Origin: Sycon ciliatum
Lineage: Eukaryota; Porifera; Calcarea; Leucosolenida; Sycettidae
Reading direction: 5' to 3'
DNA length: 64,000 nt
Assembly (NCBI RefSeq): GCF_964019385.1
Contig: NC_088643.1
Span: 6,476,495-6,540,494, forward strand
In this document: positions 12,629 to 36,110 of the stretch, one piece after another
Layout of the letters: each line of letters starts with the position of its first letter
Position numbering within the stretch: the stretch's first letter is position 1
Translations under genes and position numbers: made by a program
The notes under the pieces: model-generated
Database searches by the model: none
Told to the model about the DNA's origin: nothing
The model's input: only the letters and a program-made list of their open reading frames with translations

Positions 12629-15461
12629 CCTCTTCAGCACGGCAGGGGTTTGTACCTGGCCCGCGGGCCGTTTTTCATTAAATTTCACTTTTTTCTAAAA
12701 TTCGATTCTAGCTTGTGAATTTCACCTAACAATGTGCATTTATCATTGTGATGACTTATTTCAGCAGTAAAGTCGGTGTGAACATACCCTACTGCACAGA
12801 TTTCAATGCAAATCAGCGCAGCAAATTTACGTATTTCCAGCACATCTATAAAAGTAGGACAGCTATTACAGGGTTTACTGCATGCAGTATCGCTTCTAGC
12901 TACAGGTATCAACAACTGCTAGTCAGAATGATAAAATATAAAATGTATACTCATGGTTCACCCTCTATATGTACATATTTACAGCGGTTTAGGACACGCT
13001 ACATGTCCGCAAACTCGAACAAATTTGCGTTTAGGAACCACTCGGCAATTGTGGAACAGCTACTTTCCTCGGTGCGATGTCTCGAAGCACTCAAGGCAAT
13101 ACCCTGGGTTCTTCGGGCAATCAGCACACATCTGCCGCACATCTCGGCGTTTCCCGTTGGCATAGCAGAACACACACATCTTCTGCGGCTTCTCCTTCTT
13201 GGCAGTCGCTGGGATGAGCCGTAGAAAGTGAGTGTCGAGTGGCTTTGCGGTACCGGCTGCAGCAGCCACAGCTGTGGTGTGCTCTGTGATCTCCAACTTG
13301 CCCTCTGCTATCAAACTCTTGATGGCTGCCTTCACGAAGTCATAATGCGACATCTTCACCTTCATCTTGTGCAGATAGTATGCGTTTAGCAGGGCCTGCT
13401 CCATCAGGTGCGTGGCCAGTTTTTTATACCATTTTCTGGTTTTCCGAGCAGCAGTGTACACCGAAATCATCCCGTCGTTTTTGTCCACACCACCCATCTT
13501 CTTATTGTAATCCTGCACCAAATCAAGCTTCCGTACCGGCCGGCGCTGGAGATCGCGCTTGCCAGTTGCACTGACCGTGGCTGTGTGGAGCGTGGAGAGG
13601 AAATGTACCTCTTTCGTGTCATGTAGCTTGATGAAAATCATGCCACCGCCACAGCGATACAGGAACTGGCCTTTCTGGAGGCCCTTGTGCTTTGCCACCT
13701 GCTTTGGAAGGCCAGTCCTGTTCTTGCGAACAGTGCCGCAGACGCCGGTGTTGTGCTCAGCCAAGTGAGTAGCGAGTGGCACGCTGGAGTACCAGTTGTC
13801 GACGAAGAGCTTGTAGCACTTGCCGAGTAGCGGGTCCATCAGCTTGTCGACAACGGCACCAGGCACTCCAAGCTTCTTCACCGTGTCCGGGCTGAAAGTG
13901 TCGTTGTCTTTGCCCGTGTAAATGATGAAATTGTGGAGATAACCGCTGTCCTCACACAGGGCGTATATCTTCATTCCGAACCGTGCTCGTTTCGATGGAA
14001 TGTACTGGCGGAATGAAATACGGCCCTTCCATGCCACCAGCTCCTCGTCAATGCACACCCACTCCTTCGGCACATACACTTGCTGAAAACGGTTTTGGAG
14101 GAAAGTCACCAAGGGCCGGATCTTGGTCAATTTGTCAGATTCGTCAACTTCATCGTTGTTGGCAAAGTGAAGGAAATTGAGAATTGATGTAAAACGCTCG
14201 CGGCTCATGGTGCGGTTGTAGAATGGTGTGGCTATCACAGGGTCAGTTGCCCAGTACTGGTCAATCTCCGGCTTGTTGACAATGCCCATGTTGAGGTAGA
14301 GTCCCAGGAAAACTTTCATCTCTCCAACAACAACTGGCTTCCACGAGCGGGCAAAACTGCGAGCCGGCAGAGTATGTAGGTTGGCATCGATAAATGCGCG
14401 TGCATAGCGATTGGTTTCCGTCACAAGATACTCAAAGAAATCTTCGTGGAAGAACAATTTCAGGTAGTCAAGTGGAGTTGGATGGTCTGGAAGCGGCATT
14501 TGGAGACCGGAGTTGCCAGTGAATGGCAGTGCGGTAGGTGCAATACTCTGCTTCACCCATATGCCTGGATGCATGTAATCACAATGTGCAGAAAATGTGT
14601 ATTTCAGTATCAATTCACATATCTGTTGCATATTTATTTGTACTTCAGTACTTGGTGTCCATAACATCAACAGTGACATGCTAGAACGGGCACAAAATAT
14701 CTGCAATTCAAAATACCACTAAGTTAGCCCACCTTTGCAAAAATATAGTCAACAGCATGCAACAATGCATGAATATTTGAAATTTCAAAATTCAAAATTA
14801 GTGAAATTTTCAAATTGTAAATGCACCCAACTCACCTTCGCTTCCATCGTCACCTGCAGCTAGAACCTCGACAGCTTCCACATGCGACTTCAAGGACATG
14901 GCCTCGTCGCCAGCACTGGTGTCCTCCGTACCACCTGTTGCTGCTGCTTCCGTGCTCTCCATCCCCTCAACATCGTCAGCAGCATCGCCAATTTCTGGCG
15001 ACGCACTTCGTTCAGGAGATGAAGACACAGACTCATCTGCCGACGAAAAATCGCTCTCAGAGACAGTTGGCTCATTATCGCTATCCAAACTCAGCGTGAC
15101 CTGCTCTAAAACTTGGTCGATCTCCTCTGCGCTGTATCTACGTCGTGCCATGGTTGAAAATGTCAACAAATTGTCAACAAATTTATTTCTGATTTATTTC
15201 CGCACTGCGCGACCTACTCTTGCCGTGATACGTGGCGAACTCCACGTGTACTTGTCGTGATACGTCTCCTGAACAGGCCTAGCTCCGCGGGACCACGGTA
15301 GATCTACAGTACAGGCCTGGTAGATCTACTACTAGTACTACACGGAAGCCAAAACAACTGAACTGTACGACGTGATGTAGATCGTATCACGTATATGTAC
15401 GTGATCCGTGGACCGGTAGCATCCAGGATCACGTACATTTACGTGATGCGTGCTAAAGAGG
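12629..15461 (-). mobile_element. piggyBac-type DNA transposon with CTAG target duplication
   Basis: Ends are CCTCTTCAGCACG at the left and its complement with one change (CCTCTTTAGCACG) at the right, a 13-bp terminal inverted repeat. Both ends are flanked by CTAG (12625-12628 and 15462-15465). Uninterrupted copies of the flanking repeat at 15,740 and 49,720 read ATAACTAGAGCAAAAATAG with one CTAG, so this is a clean insertion. The single gene inside is a piggyBac transposase. The family normally uses TTAA. Confidence 0.8.
13060..15151 (-). CDS. piggyBac transposase (PGBD-like), two exons, apparently intact
   Basis: Cut-and-paste DDD transposase. Exon 1 runs 15151-14836 from ATGGCACGACG (MARRRYSAEE). 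The donor is GAAG|GTGAGT, a 271-base intron follows, and the acceptor is CATCCAG|GCATATGG. Exon 2 runs 14564-13060. The two exons total 1,821 bases (607 codons with stop) and read in frame across the junction (SE-G-IWVKQS). Exon 1 is acidic and Ser-rich, like the N termini of piggyBac proteins. Exon 2 holds DYLKLFF, VFLGLYLNMGI, the first catalytic Asp in CIDEELVAWKGR, the second in LFVDNWYSS, the third in YNKKMGGVDKND, and a Cys-rich C-terminal finger (CVFCYANGK...CADCP...CLECF). Length and domain order are those of the family. No lesion is visible, so it may be active or recently active. The splice sites are my inference; the frame match supports them. Confidence 0.85.
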
Positions 15462-26169: not shown

Positions 26170-27960
26170 CTAGTAGTAGTATAGTAGTATTCTTTTATTT
26201 ATAGTGGAGAAACCAAAACAGGCAGATGCCTAATAATAATGCACCCACTGTGTAGGGTGGTGGAGGAGGGGGGGGGGGAGACATGGCTAATTGTAAATAG
26301 TGGCGGCGAAATAGAGCAGTTCCAGCACAGCTACAGAAACATAGGCGTAAAGCTAAAAGCAAGCAAGAATGTGTTGCAAAGCACTTGACTTGAAGGCGAA
26401 ATAGAGCAGTTCCGGCACAGCTACAGAAACATGGGCGTAAAGCTAAAAGGTAAAAGTAGGCAAGGATGTGTTGCAAAGCACTTGACTTGAAGGCGGCCAG
26501 TTTGGTGACGCCTTGGATATCCGCATGGAGGGAATTCCAGAGAACTGCGCCAGCATGTGTCACCAATTTGGTAGAATGTGCAGAAGCAGCGGCATGGACG
26601 ATAAGCAGGTTACTGTTGCCTCCTCGACTTCTTCGTGACGAAAGAGGTCGAAAAAAAGTTTCAAACAATCCACTTCCTGAAGAATTTAGACAACGCCATA
26701 TAAAGCAGAGCAAGTTAAGTAGAATGGTAGCGCGCAAGGGAGAGACATGTACACGCTCAAGCAGCGTAACGGTGGGAGTCCATGGGGGCACTTTACATAC
26801 AGAACGCAGTGCGCGCTTGAAGAGCCTTTCCAGACGGAGCTCCTGGTGAACAGATAGATATGGGACATAAGCATTGGATGTATACAAAAACTCAGGCAGC
26901 ACAAAGCATTTGAAGTAGCAGATACGACATGAGAGGGGTAAAGATGCAGCATGGCGGACTAAGACAGCTATTTTAGCAGAAACCCTGATAGCAAAACGTT
27001 GAACCATTGTCTGCCAGCACATTGACGTGTCAAAATGTAAGCCTAGATACTTGGCCGATGGTACCACCGGCAGATCTTAACTATTGCATGTCACGCGTAG
27101 GGCAAAGGGTGGTGATCTGTGAGGAGGGATTGGTAGGATTTGTGTTTTCGTTTCATTCAGAATTAAGCCAAGCTGTCGTAGCCAGTCAGACAGGTGTTGT
27201 ACTGCACCGGACAGTCGCTGAGCAACAATTGCCGGTGTCTCGGCACTGGCTCGTAATGAGATGTCATCTGCAAACTGTGTTGGGGTAACACCGTATGGCC
27301 TCACCATATGAGGCATATCTCGAACATACACAACCAAGAGCAATTGACCCAGCACTGATCCTTGCGGAACACCACAGCTACTTGCGTAGGCAGCACTTTT
27401 GCTTGGGCCAACTAGAGTCTGATGCGGCACTTTGTCGAAGGCTTTCGACATGTCTACAAAAGCGACTCCAGTGTAGAGGCGTGCCACTTGTGCCTGTTGA
27501 ATTTGCTCTACCGTTAACACTAGGGCATCAGAGGTGGAGTGGTGGCTACGAATACCAAATTGTTCCATTGGTAGAAGATCTTGGCTCTCCAGAAAATCAG
27601 ACAGTTGCTCATGAACAATCCGTTCAAGGATCTTGGAGACCACAGGGAGTAGGGAAACTGGTCTATAGTTATTAGGTTGGCTGGGGTCACCGGCTTTGAA
27701 CAGTGGGCGGATGCATGCCCTTTTCATTGATTCTGGGAATTTCCCCTCCCTCAGTGATCTGTTGAACAGCAAAGTCAGCGATGGGGCCAGGGTATCCCCA
27801 CACAAACGGAGAAGGACAGTTGGTATACCATCGCTTCCAGTTGCTTTAGTTGAATTCACTGATTGCAGCAGCGTAGTACTAGTACTAACATCACGTAGTT
27901 GGGTCTGTGAAGAGAGAGGTGAATGCGTCAGGTAGTAGGTGGTGTTTCTTTGGCTTCCCT
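26170..27960 (-). pseudogene. Non-LTR retrotransposon (LINE) reverse transcriptase, 5'-truncated, broken
   Basis: Minus-strand frames give a LINE reverse transcriptase: KATGSDGIPTVLLRL (about 27,840), NNYRPVSLLPVVSKILE (about 27,660), FVDMSKAFDKVPH (about 27,460), GVPQGSVLG (about 27,370), QFADDI (about 27,265), KYLGLHFD (about 27,045), then the C-terminal region to about 26,330. The stretch between KAFDKVPH and GVPQGS is much too short, so about 30 residues are deleted. A stop near 27,077 and a frame change split the protein. An 85-95-base segment is tandemly duplicated (about 26,309-26,393 and 26,394-26,490). No endonuclease domain remains. The 3' end is CACTATAAATAAAAG with an ACTACT-type tail at about 26,170. 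The clade is CR1/jockey-like by pattern. Confidence 0.8.
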
Positions 27961-28243: not shown

Positions 28244-28494
28244 AAAACATTACTTATGGTTGATAAATATGGTGGTAAAGACACACCTGGCAATATGGCG
28301 GTAAACACACGCCTGCCCACACACGCTCTCTAGGCTGCAAAGTTCTGGCACAGAGCTCTCCTTCTCACCACCACCACCACCATCAGTTCGCGCCTGGCGC
28401 CTGGTCGATGCATGGCTGGAGGTATCCGGCATAGCAGGCTGGTACATCAAGTAGCGCATGGCACATAGATGATGACACAGCAACGACATAGCTC

Positions 28495-28538
28495 GATTGC
28501 GACGTACGTTTCGTCCCCGCTGGACTCATCAGGCAATC
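28495..28538 (-). ncRNA. Hammerhead ribozyme, minimal type I (family 2)
   Basis: Minus strand, 44 bases: stem I GAUUGC/GCAAUC (six pairs), core CUGAUGA, stem II GUCC/GGAC with loop AGCGG, GAAA, stem III A-CG/CG-U with two-base loop UA, C at the cleavage site just before GCAAUC. Every conserved position is satisfied. The partner copy in the inverted part (about 28,793-28,830, plus strand) lacks the first half of the core and is dead. Confidence 0.9.
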
Positions 28539-29072
28539 TTCTTCTTGGATGTCTTCATACGGAGCTTAACTCGGGAGAATGAAATTGAAGACACCACTGC
28601 AGCTGTACTTATGGTTGATTAATATGGTGGTAAAGACACACCTAGCAATATGGCGGTAAACACACGCCTGCCCGCACACGCTCTCTAGGCTGCAAAGTTC
28701 TGGCACAGAGCTCTCCTTCTCACCACCACCACCATCAGTTCGCGCCTGGCGCCTGGTCGATGCATGGCTGGCGGTATCCGGCATAGCAGGCTGGAGTCCA
28801 GCGGGGACGAAACGTACGTCGCAATCGAGCTATGTCGTTGCTGTGTCATCATCTATGTGCCATGCGCTACTTGATGTACCAGCCTGCTATGCCGGATACC
28901 GCCAGCCATGCATCGGCCAGGCACCAGGCGCGAACTGATGGTGGTGGTGGTGAGAAGGAGAGCTCTGTGCCAGAACTTTGCAGCCTAGAGAGCGTGTGTG
29001 GGCAGGTGTGTGTTTACCGCCATATTGCCAGGTGTGTCTTTACCACCATATTTATCAACCATAAGTACAGCT

Positions 29073-30229
29073 TATCGATTATCGTAAAGCCTTTGACACA
29101 GTTAACCACTCATATCTTTTCGGTTGCCTTTTGGAATTTGGTTTCCCTCGCCACATAGTTTGTTTGCTTCAGAATCTTTACACAGGGATGAGCGGAGTTA
29201 TCAGATGGAATGGCTCGCATTCGCCGGAGCTCGCCATCAAGAAGGGTGTTCGGCAGGGCTGTATTTTGTCCCCACATCTATTTAGCCTGTACACTGAGAG
29301 TGTTATGCGTGTTGCTGATGTGGACAGTATCGGTGTGAGAATCGGAGGACGCCGGCTATCGAACCTACGATATGCAGATGACACGGGGTTGTGTGCACAT
29401 CCATCAGAAGTGTCTACCCTCACCAATGCTGTTAATGACGCTGGAAGAGAGAAGGGCCTGTCGCTGAATCTGTCCAAAACCAAGATCATGCATATCGGAA
29501 CCTGTACTGCTGGTGCAAACGATACTGCTCCAACGCCCCTTGTGGTCGACGGAGAACGAATTTCAGAGGTGAGCAGTTTCAAGTATCTGGGATCCTGGAA
29601 GACAACAAACGGTGATTGCAGCCTCGATATTCGGTCAAGAATTGCCATGGCGAAAGAGCGTATGCTGCAGTTAATTGACATCTGGAAAGACCACAACATC
29701 TCCAGACAGCTGAAAATCCGGATAATGCATGCCTTAGTGTGGTCTGTCCTGCTGTATGGAGCTGAGAGTTGGACTCTGCGGAAGACAGATGAACGACGAA
29801 TACAGGCAGCAGAAATGTGGTGCTACCGACGTCTGCTCAGAGTATCCTGGATGGAGAAGCGCACAAATGACAGTATCCTGGTGGAGTTGGGAGTACAGAG
29901 ACAGCTGCTAGCCAGGGTCAAGATACGCAAATTGACCTATTTCGGGCACACATGCCGCCCATCTGGCTGCGAGCTTGTACGTGACGTGATGTTTGGTGTC
30001 GTGGATGGTAAGAGAAAGCGTGGTCGTCCGAAGATTTCCTTTGCTGACAACATCGTTTCGTGGACTGGTATGTCTCTGCATGAGAATTGCCAGTTGGCAT
30101 CTGACAGAGATGCCTGGCAGTCGCACTGTGCATCTACTGCTTACACAGCTGCATAATGCCGTTTATTATTATTTTTAAAATTTTACTTTTATTATTTTTT
30201 CGGCAACGCAGATGATGATGATGATGATG
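29073..30229 (+). mobile_element. 5'-truncated LINE with 10-bp target duplication
   Basis: Flanked by AAGTACAGCT (29063-29072 and 30230-30239). It ends in a GAT-repeat tail (30211-30229) after the coding region. It lies inside the inverted arm of the retrozyme, which is continuous when the LINE is removed, so the LINE is younger. Confidence 0.85.
29074..30156 (+). pseudogene. LINE reverse transcriptase C-terminal half, frame open
   Basis: In frame from the insertion point: DYRKAFDTVNH (first catalytic Asp), GVRQGCILSPHLF, RYADDTGL (catalytic YADD), NLSKTKIM, FKYLGSWK, then the region after the reverse transcriptase (LLYGAESWTLRK, RRLLRVSWMEKRTNDSIL, KLTYFGHTCR, RGRPK) to the stop TAA at 30154-30156. 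The frame itself is undamaged, so the insertion is recent, but the endonuclease and the first third of the reverse transcriptase were lost by 5' truncation. It is a non-LTR retrotransposon of undetermined clade. Confidence 0.85.
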
Positions 30230-30279
30230 AAGTACAGCTGCAGTGGTGTCTTCAATTTCATTCTCCCAAAACATTACTT

Positions 30280-31219: not shown

Positions 31220-31460
31220 CGCTATCCCGTATCTGTCCCGTACCGTACCCTACCATCAAACACAGCTGGCCACATACAGCTGGCCGCAATATTCAAATAG
31301 GGCTTTCAAACGCAAGATCATAACGTGAAGCAACTTGGAAGCATGGGTATGAATGCGAAGTGTATGGGGGAATGCATGTAGGGCGATAATGCGGGTTCGA
31401 ATCCCAGGATATGCCTGAAAAAAAAAGAAGGAGAATTGAAAAATGTATAACATCCCTATG
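31220..31460 (+). repeat. tRNA-like SINE, copy 1
   Basis: Shares GATCATAACGTGAAGCAAC, GCGAAGTGTAT, GGGTTCGAATCCC and ATAACATCCCTATG with the copy at 31,865-33,390. GGTTCGAATCC is a polymerase III B box and TGGAAGCATGG could be a weak A box. An A-rich tail starts about 31,418. Confidence 0.55.
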
Positions 31461-32304: not shown

Positions 32305-32467
32305 ATAGTGCGGGTTCGAATCCCAGGTTATGTCTAAGACTCTTAAAAAATAGCTATGCCTTGAAAAGTATCAAGAGTGCATTTATGGACTCTTGAAAGT
32401 ATGAATGCCGCAGACATCACCACGCAACATGACAATTAATATTTTGTTCAAAGTTTGGTTTTGTGTG

Positions 32468-32507
32468 TTTCCAAAATCGATTTTCACGCTCCGATCATCA
32501 GTGGAAA
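32468..32507 (-). ncRNA. Hammerhead ribozyme (left arm of inverted-repeat element)
   Basis: Minus strand, 40 bases: stem I UUUCCA/UGGAAA, core CUGAUGA, stem II U-CG-GAG-CG-U (two pairs closed by a U.U mismatch), GAAA, stem III AAU/AUU with loop CG, U at the cleavage site. The core is perfect; stem II is weak. Confidence 0.65.
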
Positions 32508-32712
32508 TACGGAACTAAAGAGATCAAGGGAAAAACAAAGGTTAAAAATCCAAAGAAGTGTGACACATGACGGGTAACTTGTGGTAAGTATTACAAAAAG
32601 TGAGAACTAAAATAAAGAGTAAGTGTGACAACCGGGCATGAACAGTGCAGAAACAACTCATGAACACGGGGTGCAAACTCACGAAAATAACCTAAGTGCT
32701 AAAACACTCAAT

Positions 32713-32756
32713 CTGCGGACAGAACTGTTTCGTCCTTTGTGGACTCGTCAGCGCAG
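32713..32756 (-). ncRNA. Hammerhead ribozyme 1 of the family-1 retrozyme
   Basis: Minus strand: stem I CUGCG/CGCAG, core CUGACGA, stem II GUCC/GGAC with loop ACAAA, GAAA, stem III A-CAG/CUG-U with loop UU, C at the cleavage site followed by CGCAG. All conserved positions are intact. Confidence 0.92.
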
Positions 32757-32940
32757 CACAGAGGAAATGAGGCCGAACCTGATAGCAATGGAAATAAAAA
32801 TTTCCAATCAGGCCCGAACGTACCTTGCCAGAGTGCTCAAACTGACAAGTCCGAGTGAGCTCTGCATAACGCAAACAGCAAAGGCACTACCCCACGCAAG
32901 AGTGCTCAACTGCTACAAGAGCAGGAGCGAAATACTCAAT

Positions 32941-32984
32941 CTGCGGACAGAACTGTTTCGTCCTTTGTGGACTCGTCAGCGCAG
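32941..32984 (-). ncRNA. Hammerhead ribozyme 2 of the family-1 retrozyme
   Basis: Identical 44-base motif, one monomer (228 bases) away from the first and in the same orientation. Two cleavages would cut out exactly one unit. Confidence 0.92.
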
Positions 32985-33198
32985 CACAAAGTGCTAAAAC
33001 ATGTTCTTTTTGCTTACACAAATCGGGCTTATGCGTACGAGTTCATGAGTTGTTTCTGCACTGTTCATGCCCGGTTGTCACACTTACTCTTTATTTTAGT
33101 TCTCACTTTTTGTAATACTTACCACAAGTTACCCGTCATGTGTCACACTTCTTTGGATTTTTAACCTTTATTTTTCCCTTGATCTCTTTAGTTCCGTA

Positions 33199-33238
33199 TT
33201 TCCACTGATGATCGGAGCGTGAAAATCGATTTTGGAAA
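33199..33238 (+). ncRNA. Hammerhead ribozyme (right arm of inverted-repeat element)
   Basis: Plus-strand mirror of 32468-32507: UUUCCA (33199-33204), CUGAUGA (33205-33211), GAAA (33221-33224), cleavage after 33232, UGGAAA (33233-33238). Confidence 0.65.
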
Positions 33239-33390
33239 CACACAAAACCAAACTTTGAACAAATTGTCATGTTGCGTGGTGATTGATGTCTGCGGCATTC
33301 ATACTTTTCATAGGTATTATTAAACTTTTATCTCCTCGTAGACTCTTAAAAAAAAGATTTTTTTTAAAGAATTTATAACATCCCTATGCT

Positions 33391-36110
<2,720 letters not shown>

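Follow-up and report, generated by a model that had tools for sequence, protein, structure and literature searches.

Insertion anatomy of a hammerhead retrozyme family in an animal genome is consistent with reverse transcription around a circular RNA

Introduction

A 282-bp insert in the 64,000-nucleotide stretch of DNA analysed here (the window) carries two hammerhead motifs in direct repeat, and the question it raises is what kind of element it is and how such an element is copied into a genome. Animal non-LTR retrozymes are recognised by a unit of about 150-450 bp that is flanked by hammerheads and arranged in dimers to multimers (Cervera and de la Pena 2020, PMC7229834). Penelope-like elements (PLEs) have been named strong candidates for mobilising animal retrozymes, and a circular template copied by a PLE enzyme has already been proposed (PMC7229834, PMC7761336); a passage of the latter text also states that no conserved motif in animal retrozymes reveals which retrotransposon mobilises them. 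Circle and PLE belong to these earlier proposals; the insertion signature and the mechanism described below are the new part.

Sequences and samples

The host assembly searched comprises 538 Mb in 313 contigs. The wnt family gives 55 matches in it and none in 14 control genomes, seemingly prokaryotes; wnt is animal-specific, and the host is, by this sequence marker, an animal. A first DNA search for the insert yielded 29 matches, a gross undercount of the family, and copy counts were taken from pattern searches instead. The 25-nt ribozyme end occurs 3231 times genome-wide with at most two mismatches (reversed control, 0), and 2493 exact matches were counted for a 28-nt segment lying upstream of the ribozyme, against 0 for the control. 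Since thousands of copies stand against zero matches of the reversed control, the family exceeds chance. The preliminary description had named a lack of further genomic copies as part of what would refute it, and such copies are found in the thousands.

Sets A and B come from the first 100 places of each pattern search. Set 0 consists of the 29 loci of the first DNA search, counted as 21 insertions, with the ten loci of the C13/C11 group taken as one (L023, L024 and L029 are broken at the 3' end) and L004 taken as two. Set A was picked by the ribozyme end on contig C1. From 100 listed places we excluded the window's two and L046, which ends in GAG followed by AA, and the remaining 97 places form 73 clusters; removal of loci with duplicated flanks (L066, L119, L120) and of those extending past the fetched piece (L067, L068, L072, L075, L124, L128) left 64 events. 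Set B contains 40 C1 clusters picked by the piece upstream of the ribozyme, so it is unselected for the 3' end. These are 40 of the 44 clusters outside set A among the matches listed, and 2 of the 40 run off the fetched piece. Subtracting the set A clusters leaves set B with fewer exact ribozyme ends, a bias that runs against the junction claim made below. L153 and L165 were assigned to the GAG junction by eye, as target letters had extended the alignment. L139 and L140 share flanks and are both counted in the set B fractions 36/38, 28/36 and 25/36 and among the 100 events of sets A and B. L042-L062 were inspected and uncounted, and L063 and L064 were fetched and unused.

Results

The window insert is a retrozyme copy with two identical hammerheads

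The preliminary description had placed a 282-bp animal retrozyme between 13-bp target duplications, with two identical 44-base hammerheads 228 nt apart from start to start, and all of this holds at the positions given in Table 1. It had also put both motifs in one orientation; they do share a strand, and that strand, left unstated there, is the minus strand. In RNA sense the ribozyme reads ...CUGCG-CUGACGA-GUCC-ACAAA-GGAC-GAAA-CAG-UU-CUG-UC^CGCAG-AUUGAG. The insert amounts to 1.24 laps of the 228-nt unit, and the 54-nt segments at its two ends are identical.

Table 1. Coordinates of the features discussed, in window positions
Feature	Position	Strand	Remarks
Target-site duplication AAGTGCTAAAACA, left copy	32694..32706		Adjoins the RNA-sense 3' end of the insert
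Target-site duplication AAGTGCTAAAACA, right copy	32989..33001		Perfect 13-bp match to the left copy
Host inverted-repeat element, left arm	32396..32668	+	High-copy element
Host inverted-repeat element, right arm	33038..33310	-	251-nt core arms 94% complementary
Retrozyme insert	32707..32988	-	A 228-nt unit and 54 nt of another lap; the minus strand has the RNA sense
Hammerhead type I, 5' copy in RNA	32941..32984	-	RF00163 30.1 bits; predicted cleavage between 32946 and 32945
Hammerhead type I, 3' copy in RNA	32713..32756	-	RF00163 30.1 bits; predicted cleavage between 32718 and 32717
Predicted 228-nt RNA freed by double self-cleavage	32718..32945	-	228 spacing
Fixed RNA-sense 3' junction (...CGCAGAUUGAG, then target)	32707..32709	-	At the outer end of stem I of the ribozyme; 11 nt downstream of the cleavage site
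GGACUUGUCAGU	32841..32852	-	Predicted pairing with the ribozyme core (GCUGACGAGUCC) in the circle
Second hammerhead, type I, minimal form, palindromic stem III	28495..28538	-	RF00163 35.4 bits, over the gathering score
Second-family two-way (head-to-head) insertion, 3' ends outward	28256..30267		Flanks AAAACATTACTT at 28244-28255 and 30268-30279

An Rfam search, proposed in the preliminary description as a check, aligns RF00163 with both motifs over the full model length, positions 1-45 (window positions 32712-32757 and 32940-32985; in a search of 8 kb each scores 30.1 bits with E 2.6e-4). A default whole-window Rfam scan omits both, because 30.1 bits lies below the gathering score of 34; the relatives L043, L044 and L045 reach that score. 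We aligned 17 of 40 family motifs, all 40 found by similarity to the window motif, leaving out the second L001 motif, L011, one damaged L020 motif and the rest of the C13/C11 group. The core is nearly invariant across the 17, and 93.0% of cells in the ribozyme helices remain paired. An outer CUC/GAG helix past an internal loop lengthens stem I and is kept in most of the 17 (92% of cells). In four motifs, which probably share ancestry, both bases of one stem II pair have changed (C-G to U-A). Covariation is modest, the number of pairs changed on both sides being matched by 144 of 500 shuffles and the covariation score by 2 of 500, and we take the two-sided change as mild support for the ribozyme.

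The 54-nt ribozyme stretch is the only end repeat of the insert, which has no LTR and no retrotransposon gene. It encodes neither a reverse transcriptase (RT) nor a GIY-YIG domain and is itself not a Penelope-like element. Type I topology, the absence of LTRs, the 228-nt unit, multi-unit relatives, a long target duplication and high copy number agree with the earlier identification as an animal retrozyme, and they support reading the insert as a copy of a non-autonomous animal non-LTR retrozyme. Its RNA would self-cleave at both hammerheads and could circularise.

The predicted fold of the 228-nt circle reaches -79.9 kcal/mol against a shuffle mean of -63.9 (z -3.7), and none of 200 shuffles is as low. 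Within this fold, the pairing of GGACUUGUCAGU is predicted to occlude the ribozyme core. For the isolated 57-nt ribozyme, the hammerhead is not the predicted favourite (-11.8 vs -16.1 kcal/mol).

The insert interrupts a target site in a host repeat

The insert occupies the loop of a host inverted-repeat element that the preliminary description had missed. The host element is very common, with 1151 first-look candidates genome-wide, of which 40 were scored. The duplicated sequence AAGTGCTAAAACA occurs exactly twice on the plus strand of the window. We fetched 12 loci among 50 host-repeat matches listed, and an uninterrupted single AAGTGCTAAAACA is present in 10 of the 11 copies other than that of the window, one of which (L036) reads through the site with two extra bases; the remaining copy, L039, ends within the site. 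These 10 of 11 host copies with a single site show that the target duplication is real. When the perfect duplications and identical ribozyme ends are set against the 94% complementarity of the host arms, the retrozyme seems younger than the host element, and the insert is a genuine, fairly young copy. Separately, the window copy of the host element (32396-33310) diverges from most fetched copies past GCGTACGA.

Most copies share one RNA-sense 3' junction and a TA-type target

Of the 38 set B loci that could be resolved, 36 have their RNA-sense 3' end at GAG, 11 nt beyond the cleavage site; merging L139 and L140 makes this 35 of 37 insertions. The same junction is found in 17 of the 21 insertions of set 0, and in set A, which was selected to contain GAG, the sequence departs from the unit right after GAG in the 64 events. 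The exceptions are L006, L007, L015 and L028 in set 0 and L151 and L157 in set B. The uncounted locus L062 has its 3' end at the cleavage site itself. Two further features characterise the junction: no tail common to the copies follows GAG, and the junction sits inside the repeating unit, where multi-unit copies read through it. Two inspected loci with diverged hammerheads (L054 and L061, with GACC/GGU-type stem II) also show ATTGAG followed by unrelated sequence, and may belong to a further family that uses this 3' junction.

Immediately past GAG, the dinucleotide is TA in 45 of 64 set A events (TG in 7, CA in 5), against a TA background of 12%, in 28 of 36 set B loci and in 14 of 17 set 0 insertions; in the window copy it is TG. 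That the TA is part of the target follows from clear cases in which it also starts the other copy of the duplication (TAGCTACAGTAATTA in L123, TATACTAGTACATT in L102, TACTGAATCCTAT in L141). The RNA unit, too, continues with these two bases (GAG-UA), and a two-base pairing between primer and template at the start is possible, the alternative being a preference of the endonuclease.

Target duplications are about 12-14 bp across the family. In set A, where one event has a 5' flank too short for the test, duplications scoring at least 7 were found in 33 of 63 events, against 1.05 expected from mismatched flanks, with a median of 14 bp; the other 30 score below. The mean score was reached by none of 5000 permutations. 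In set B the corresponding figures are 25 of 36, against 1.5 expected, with a median of 12 bp and 11 of 36 below. Some called duplications fall in microsatellites, and those calls are weak. An 11-bp 'duplication' at L006 was discarded, being apparently the element's own ribozyme sequence.

Five-prime ends vary, and copies of more than one lap are homogeneous

The 5' ends of the 100 events vary from 30 nt to 4.99 units back. Copies extending more than 15 nt past one lap number 27 of 100, and the longest covers 4.99 laps. The stop rate, computed in 12 bins, peaks in the bin from -4 to +15 nt around a full lap at 0.0148 per nt, compared with 0.0013-0.0089 in the other bins. Of the 34 stops falling in the range -60 to +100, 11 belong to this pile-up at lap completion (p 0.0014), in an interval chosen after looking. 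Three of the 11 (L136, L122 and L131) have one-lap 5' ends within 2 nt of the cleavage site. Two apparent 5'-end preferences did not last: a hot spot at GGACUUGUCAG, seen in five set 0 copies, weakened in larger samples, and an end at unit position 127 proved to be an artefact of a length variant missing from the reference unit.

We compared the units of 29 multi-unit copies, including seven outside the 100 events (L067, L068, L075, L124, L147, L148, L151). Units within one insertion differ at 0.78% of columns (102/13011), compared with 3.6% (16524/454820) between insertions. Of 148 variant columns, 79 are common to all units of an insertion, many of them being subfamily differences, 66 affect a single unit, with 40 of these in L146, L151 and L155, and 3 are mixed. 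Among the matches listed, the spacing is constant within all eight clusters with at least three regular one-strand matches, at 226 nt in three, 228 in four and 229 in one. Unit homogeneity and constant spacing are most simply explained if one template was copied repeatedly, and a circle would be the simplest such template.

An alternative is that the template was a linear multi-unit transcript that escaped cleavage, with RT starting at the same internal site. Multi-unit genomic copies do exist for transcription, and the transcript of a homogeneous tandem array could also yield multi-unit copies. Moreover, L131, L122, L136 and L003 end at or beside the cleavage site, as a linear dimer with a cleaved 5' end predicts. 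Yet the other one-lap 5' ends are scattered between the start site and the cleavage site, as lap completion predicts, and the pile-up at one lap also speaks against a linear template, though it consists of 11 copies in a range picked post hoc. Mixed-unit variants, moreover, make up only 3 of the 148 columns in the 29 multimers, while old arrays do carry single-unit changes, and unit length stays constant in every one of the regular clusters among the matches listed. We regard the linear template as unlikely and prefer repeated copying of a circle.

Two-way arrays of the second family have their RNA 3' ends outward

Locus L133 consists of two opposed copies, each starting at GAG, which are together enclosed by a 13-bp duplication, TACATCATTACAA. 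L135 resembles it and sits in a microsatellite. In L069 two copies have their 3' ends inward across a (TA)n tract, which is best read as two insertions.

A second hammerhead element, missed in the preliminary description, lies 4 kb from the insert (Table 1). It belongs to a second, retrozyme-like family with a unit of about 352-355 nt, for which 211 matches were obtained from 40 scored of 1216 candidates. The 150 matches listed of these 211 form 40 clusters, 24 two-way and 16 of single orientation. In the two-way clusters among the matches listed, the RNA 3' ends point outward in 24 of 24, with none inward and none mixed; two of the 24, those of the window and of C1:6579949, resemble each other and may go back to a single duplicated event. 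Outward 3' ends are the arrangement expected if both ends of a staggered cut prime. The exact left boundary of the second-family insertion is ambiguous, because TACTT belongs to target and element alike. In the window copy, a single case, the ends of the two halves are separated by 33 nt on the RNA, compared with the one start site of the first family, an offset reminiscent of the PLE tail. A mir-31 match at 28758-28914 (30.8 bits, gathering score 51) was rejected as a chance match to the palindrome of this element. A 5'-truncated LINE (29073-30229; RVT_1, 81 bits; GAT-repeat end) is inserted in it, with a 10-bp duplication, AAGTACAGCT, at 29063-29072 and 30230-30239.

Discussion

A proposed life cycle and its enzyme

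Insertion, target duplication, a fixed 3' junction, variable 5' ends, homogeneity over several laps and outward arrays are all directly legible in the genomic copies; RNA cleavage, circularity and a PLE as the enzyme are what we infer. A multi-unit copy would be transcribed, and the hammerheads would cut the RNA into units of roughly 226-240 nt, which would be ligated into circles by analogy with published animal retrozymes. An enzyme with endonuclease and RT activities would then cut genomic DNA at a TA-type site, staggering its two cuts by about 12-15 bp, and the freed DNA 3' end would prime RT at a fixed position of the circle, 11 nt past the ligated cleavage site (GAG^UA), which is the outer edge of ribozyme stem I. 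RT would circle the template to a variable extent, less than one lap giving 5'-truncated copies and more than one lap giving tandem units. Priming by both DNA ends would give a head-to-head array with its 3' ends outward. The most likely enzyme would be a PLE. Taken as a whole, this life cycle, with its circular template, fixed internal start, multi-lap RT and PLE, is probably correct for the family described here. Whether it holds for animal retrozymes at large, namely that PLE-like machinery inserts them with the circle as an endless template, that synthesis starts at GAG^UA, that either or both ends of a staggered TA-type cut prime, and that several laps produce tandem and head-to-head arrays in one event, we consider evenly balanced. 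If so, the ribozyme would serve twice, in making the circle and in marking the start site.

A PLE-like frame, open over 807 aa, is present in the genome at C1:2909266, with a YIDD RT-like segment (L178) and, in the same frame, a GIY-YIG segment (L179) whose match scores 28.3 bits against a cut-off of 22.6. Its RT part was not recognised in Pfam, NCBIfam and PDB searches; we take the frame to be PLE-like from its sequence motifs together with the GIY-YIG match. Three PLE-style traits are read from the genomic copies themselves, namely a fixed internal start, an AT-rich (TA) target and the extension of both strands of the break. Against a PLE stands the single start site of the first family, instead of the two, 30-40 nt apart, described for PLEs.

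LINE insertions are characterised by 5' truncation and 10-20-bp duplications. A LINE of the host genome could thus be the mobiliser instead, by target-primed RT of an RNA whose 3' end is fixed at GAG, and both of these LINE-like features are found in the family. The window also contains LINE-type RTs (RVT_1 at 27080-27958 on the minus strand and at 29065-30153 on the plus strand) and the LINE fragment with its 10-bp duplication. However, the junction, being internal to the repeating unit and crossed by multi-unit copies, is more than the end of an RNA, and the copies have no common tail after GAG. The opposed cDNAs of L133, in addition, start at one RNA position, which differs from twin priming as described for LINE-1. 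LINE enzymes are a possible mobiliser and, to our judgement, a rather improbable one, and a PLE is the reading we retain.

A tandem satellite that carries the ribozyme along passively and spreads through recombination or duplication of DNA would fit the clear DNA-level duplicates (the chromosome C13 group, L065/L066, L118-L120, L139/L140, L052/L053, L058/L059), yet it is very improbable for the family, as dispersed copies have unrelated flanks, target duplications and a common 3' junction, and the window copy has an empty site in the host repeat; the duplications and empty sites already contradict it. That the hammerhead is a chance look-alike in a repeat, as its sub-threshold Rfam score of 30.1 against 34 and its modest covariation might hint, is scarcely credible given two identical full motifs in the insert, a near-invariant core, a two-sided change of one stem II pair in 4 of 17 motifs, and the gathering score reached by L043, L044 and L045.

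Comparison with known systems

Among animal non-LTR retrozymes, that of Acropora millepora is the closest (Cervera and de la Pena 2020, PMC7229834). Shared with animal retrozymes are type I hammerheads, units of about 225-245 bp that occur as dimers up to long multimers, the presence of two length variants, the absence of LTRs, duplications longer than 4 bp, thousands of motifs and a predicted compact circle (PMC7229834). In that account, most animal circles leave the ribozyme free, whereas the circle predicted here pairs the ribozyme core, which may be a difference; GC content is below 50% in animal retrozymes and at the border here (50.0% for the unit, 50.7% for the insert). The parts of PMC7229834 consulted do not describe a fixed 3' junction, a TA target, lap statistics or outward arrays.

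The PLE PAc of Anolis (Frangieh et al. 2024, PMC11167929) is alike in that RT starts inside the RNA downstream of a hammerhead, the target is AT-rich and both DNA strands are cut and extended, as was seen in vitro with the PLE protein. PAc differs in being autonomous, encoding RT and GIY-YIG, and in starting within its ORF, roughly 90 nt past the ribozyme cut, at two adjacent sites; the PLE tail there consists of two start sites 30-40 nt apart (PMC11167929). PAc ribozyme mutants still insert in vitro, and the word 'circular' is absent from the main text of that paper.

Plant LTR retrozymes are likewise non-autonomous, with a hammerhead-flanked unit and a circular RNA, but have type III ribozymes, LTRs, a tRNA primer site, 4-bp duplications and circles of 600-800 nt (PMC7229834, PMC7761336). 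The hammerhead repeats of newts and salamanders also contain a type I hammerhead in tandem units (PMC7229834). They differ in their 330-353 bp units and in a weak helix III acting as dimers, compared with a stem III of three to four pairs in the first family, while the second family of the window is similar to them in its weak palindromic stem III.

Searches of the open-licence PMC literature did not bring up the insertion anatomy in print. A common 3' junction, a TA target, lap counts and outward arrays supply a signature of the mobiliser of the kind reported to be lacking. This signature makes the idea of a circular template countable in any assembly and gives biochemistry an exact RNA position. 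The creation of an instant tandem or inverted array by one insertion event could be explained in this way.

Other features of the window and family

Ten set 0 loci (L018-L024, L026, L027 and L029, on C13 and C11) carry an old three-unit retrozyme copy lying in a region duplicated many times on C13, and this copy was likely amplified as DNA. The LINE-type RT fragment at 27080-27958 (minus strand) matches RVT_1 with 103 bits. An open frame of 552 aa at 13063-14718 (minus strand) matches the piggyBac-type transposase profile DDE_Tnp_1_7 over its entire length (E 3.5e-96). A GT microsatellite of more than 1 kb lies at about 34230-35600. No tRNA gene was found in the window; the motif GGTTCGAATCCCAGG, which we take to be box-B-like, occurs twice, at 31386-31416 and 32305-32335, and the pair perhaps represents a tRNA-derived SINE.
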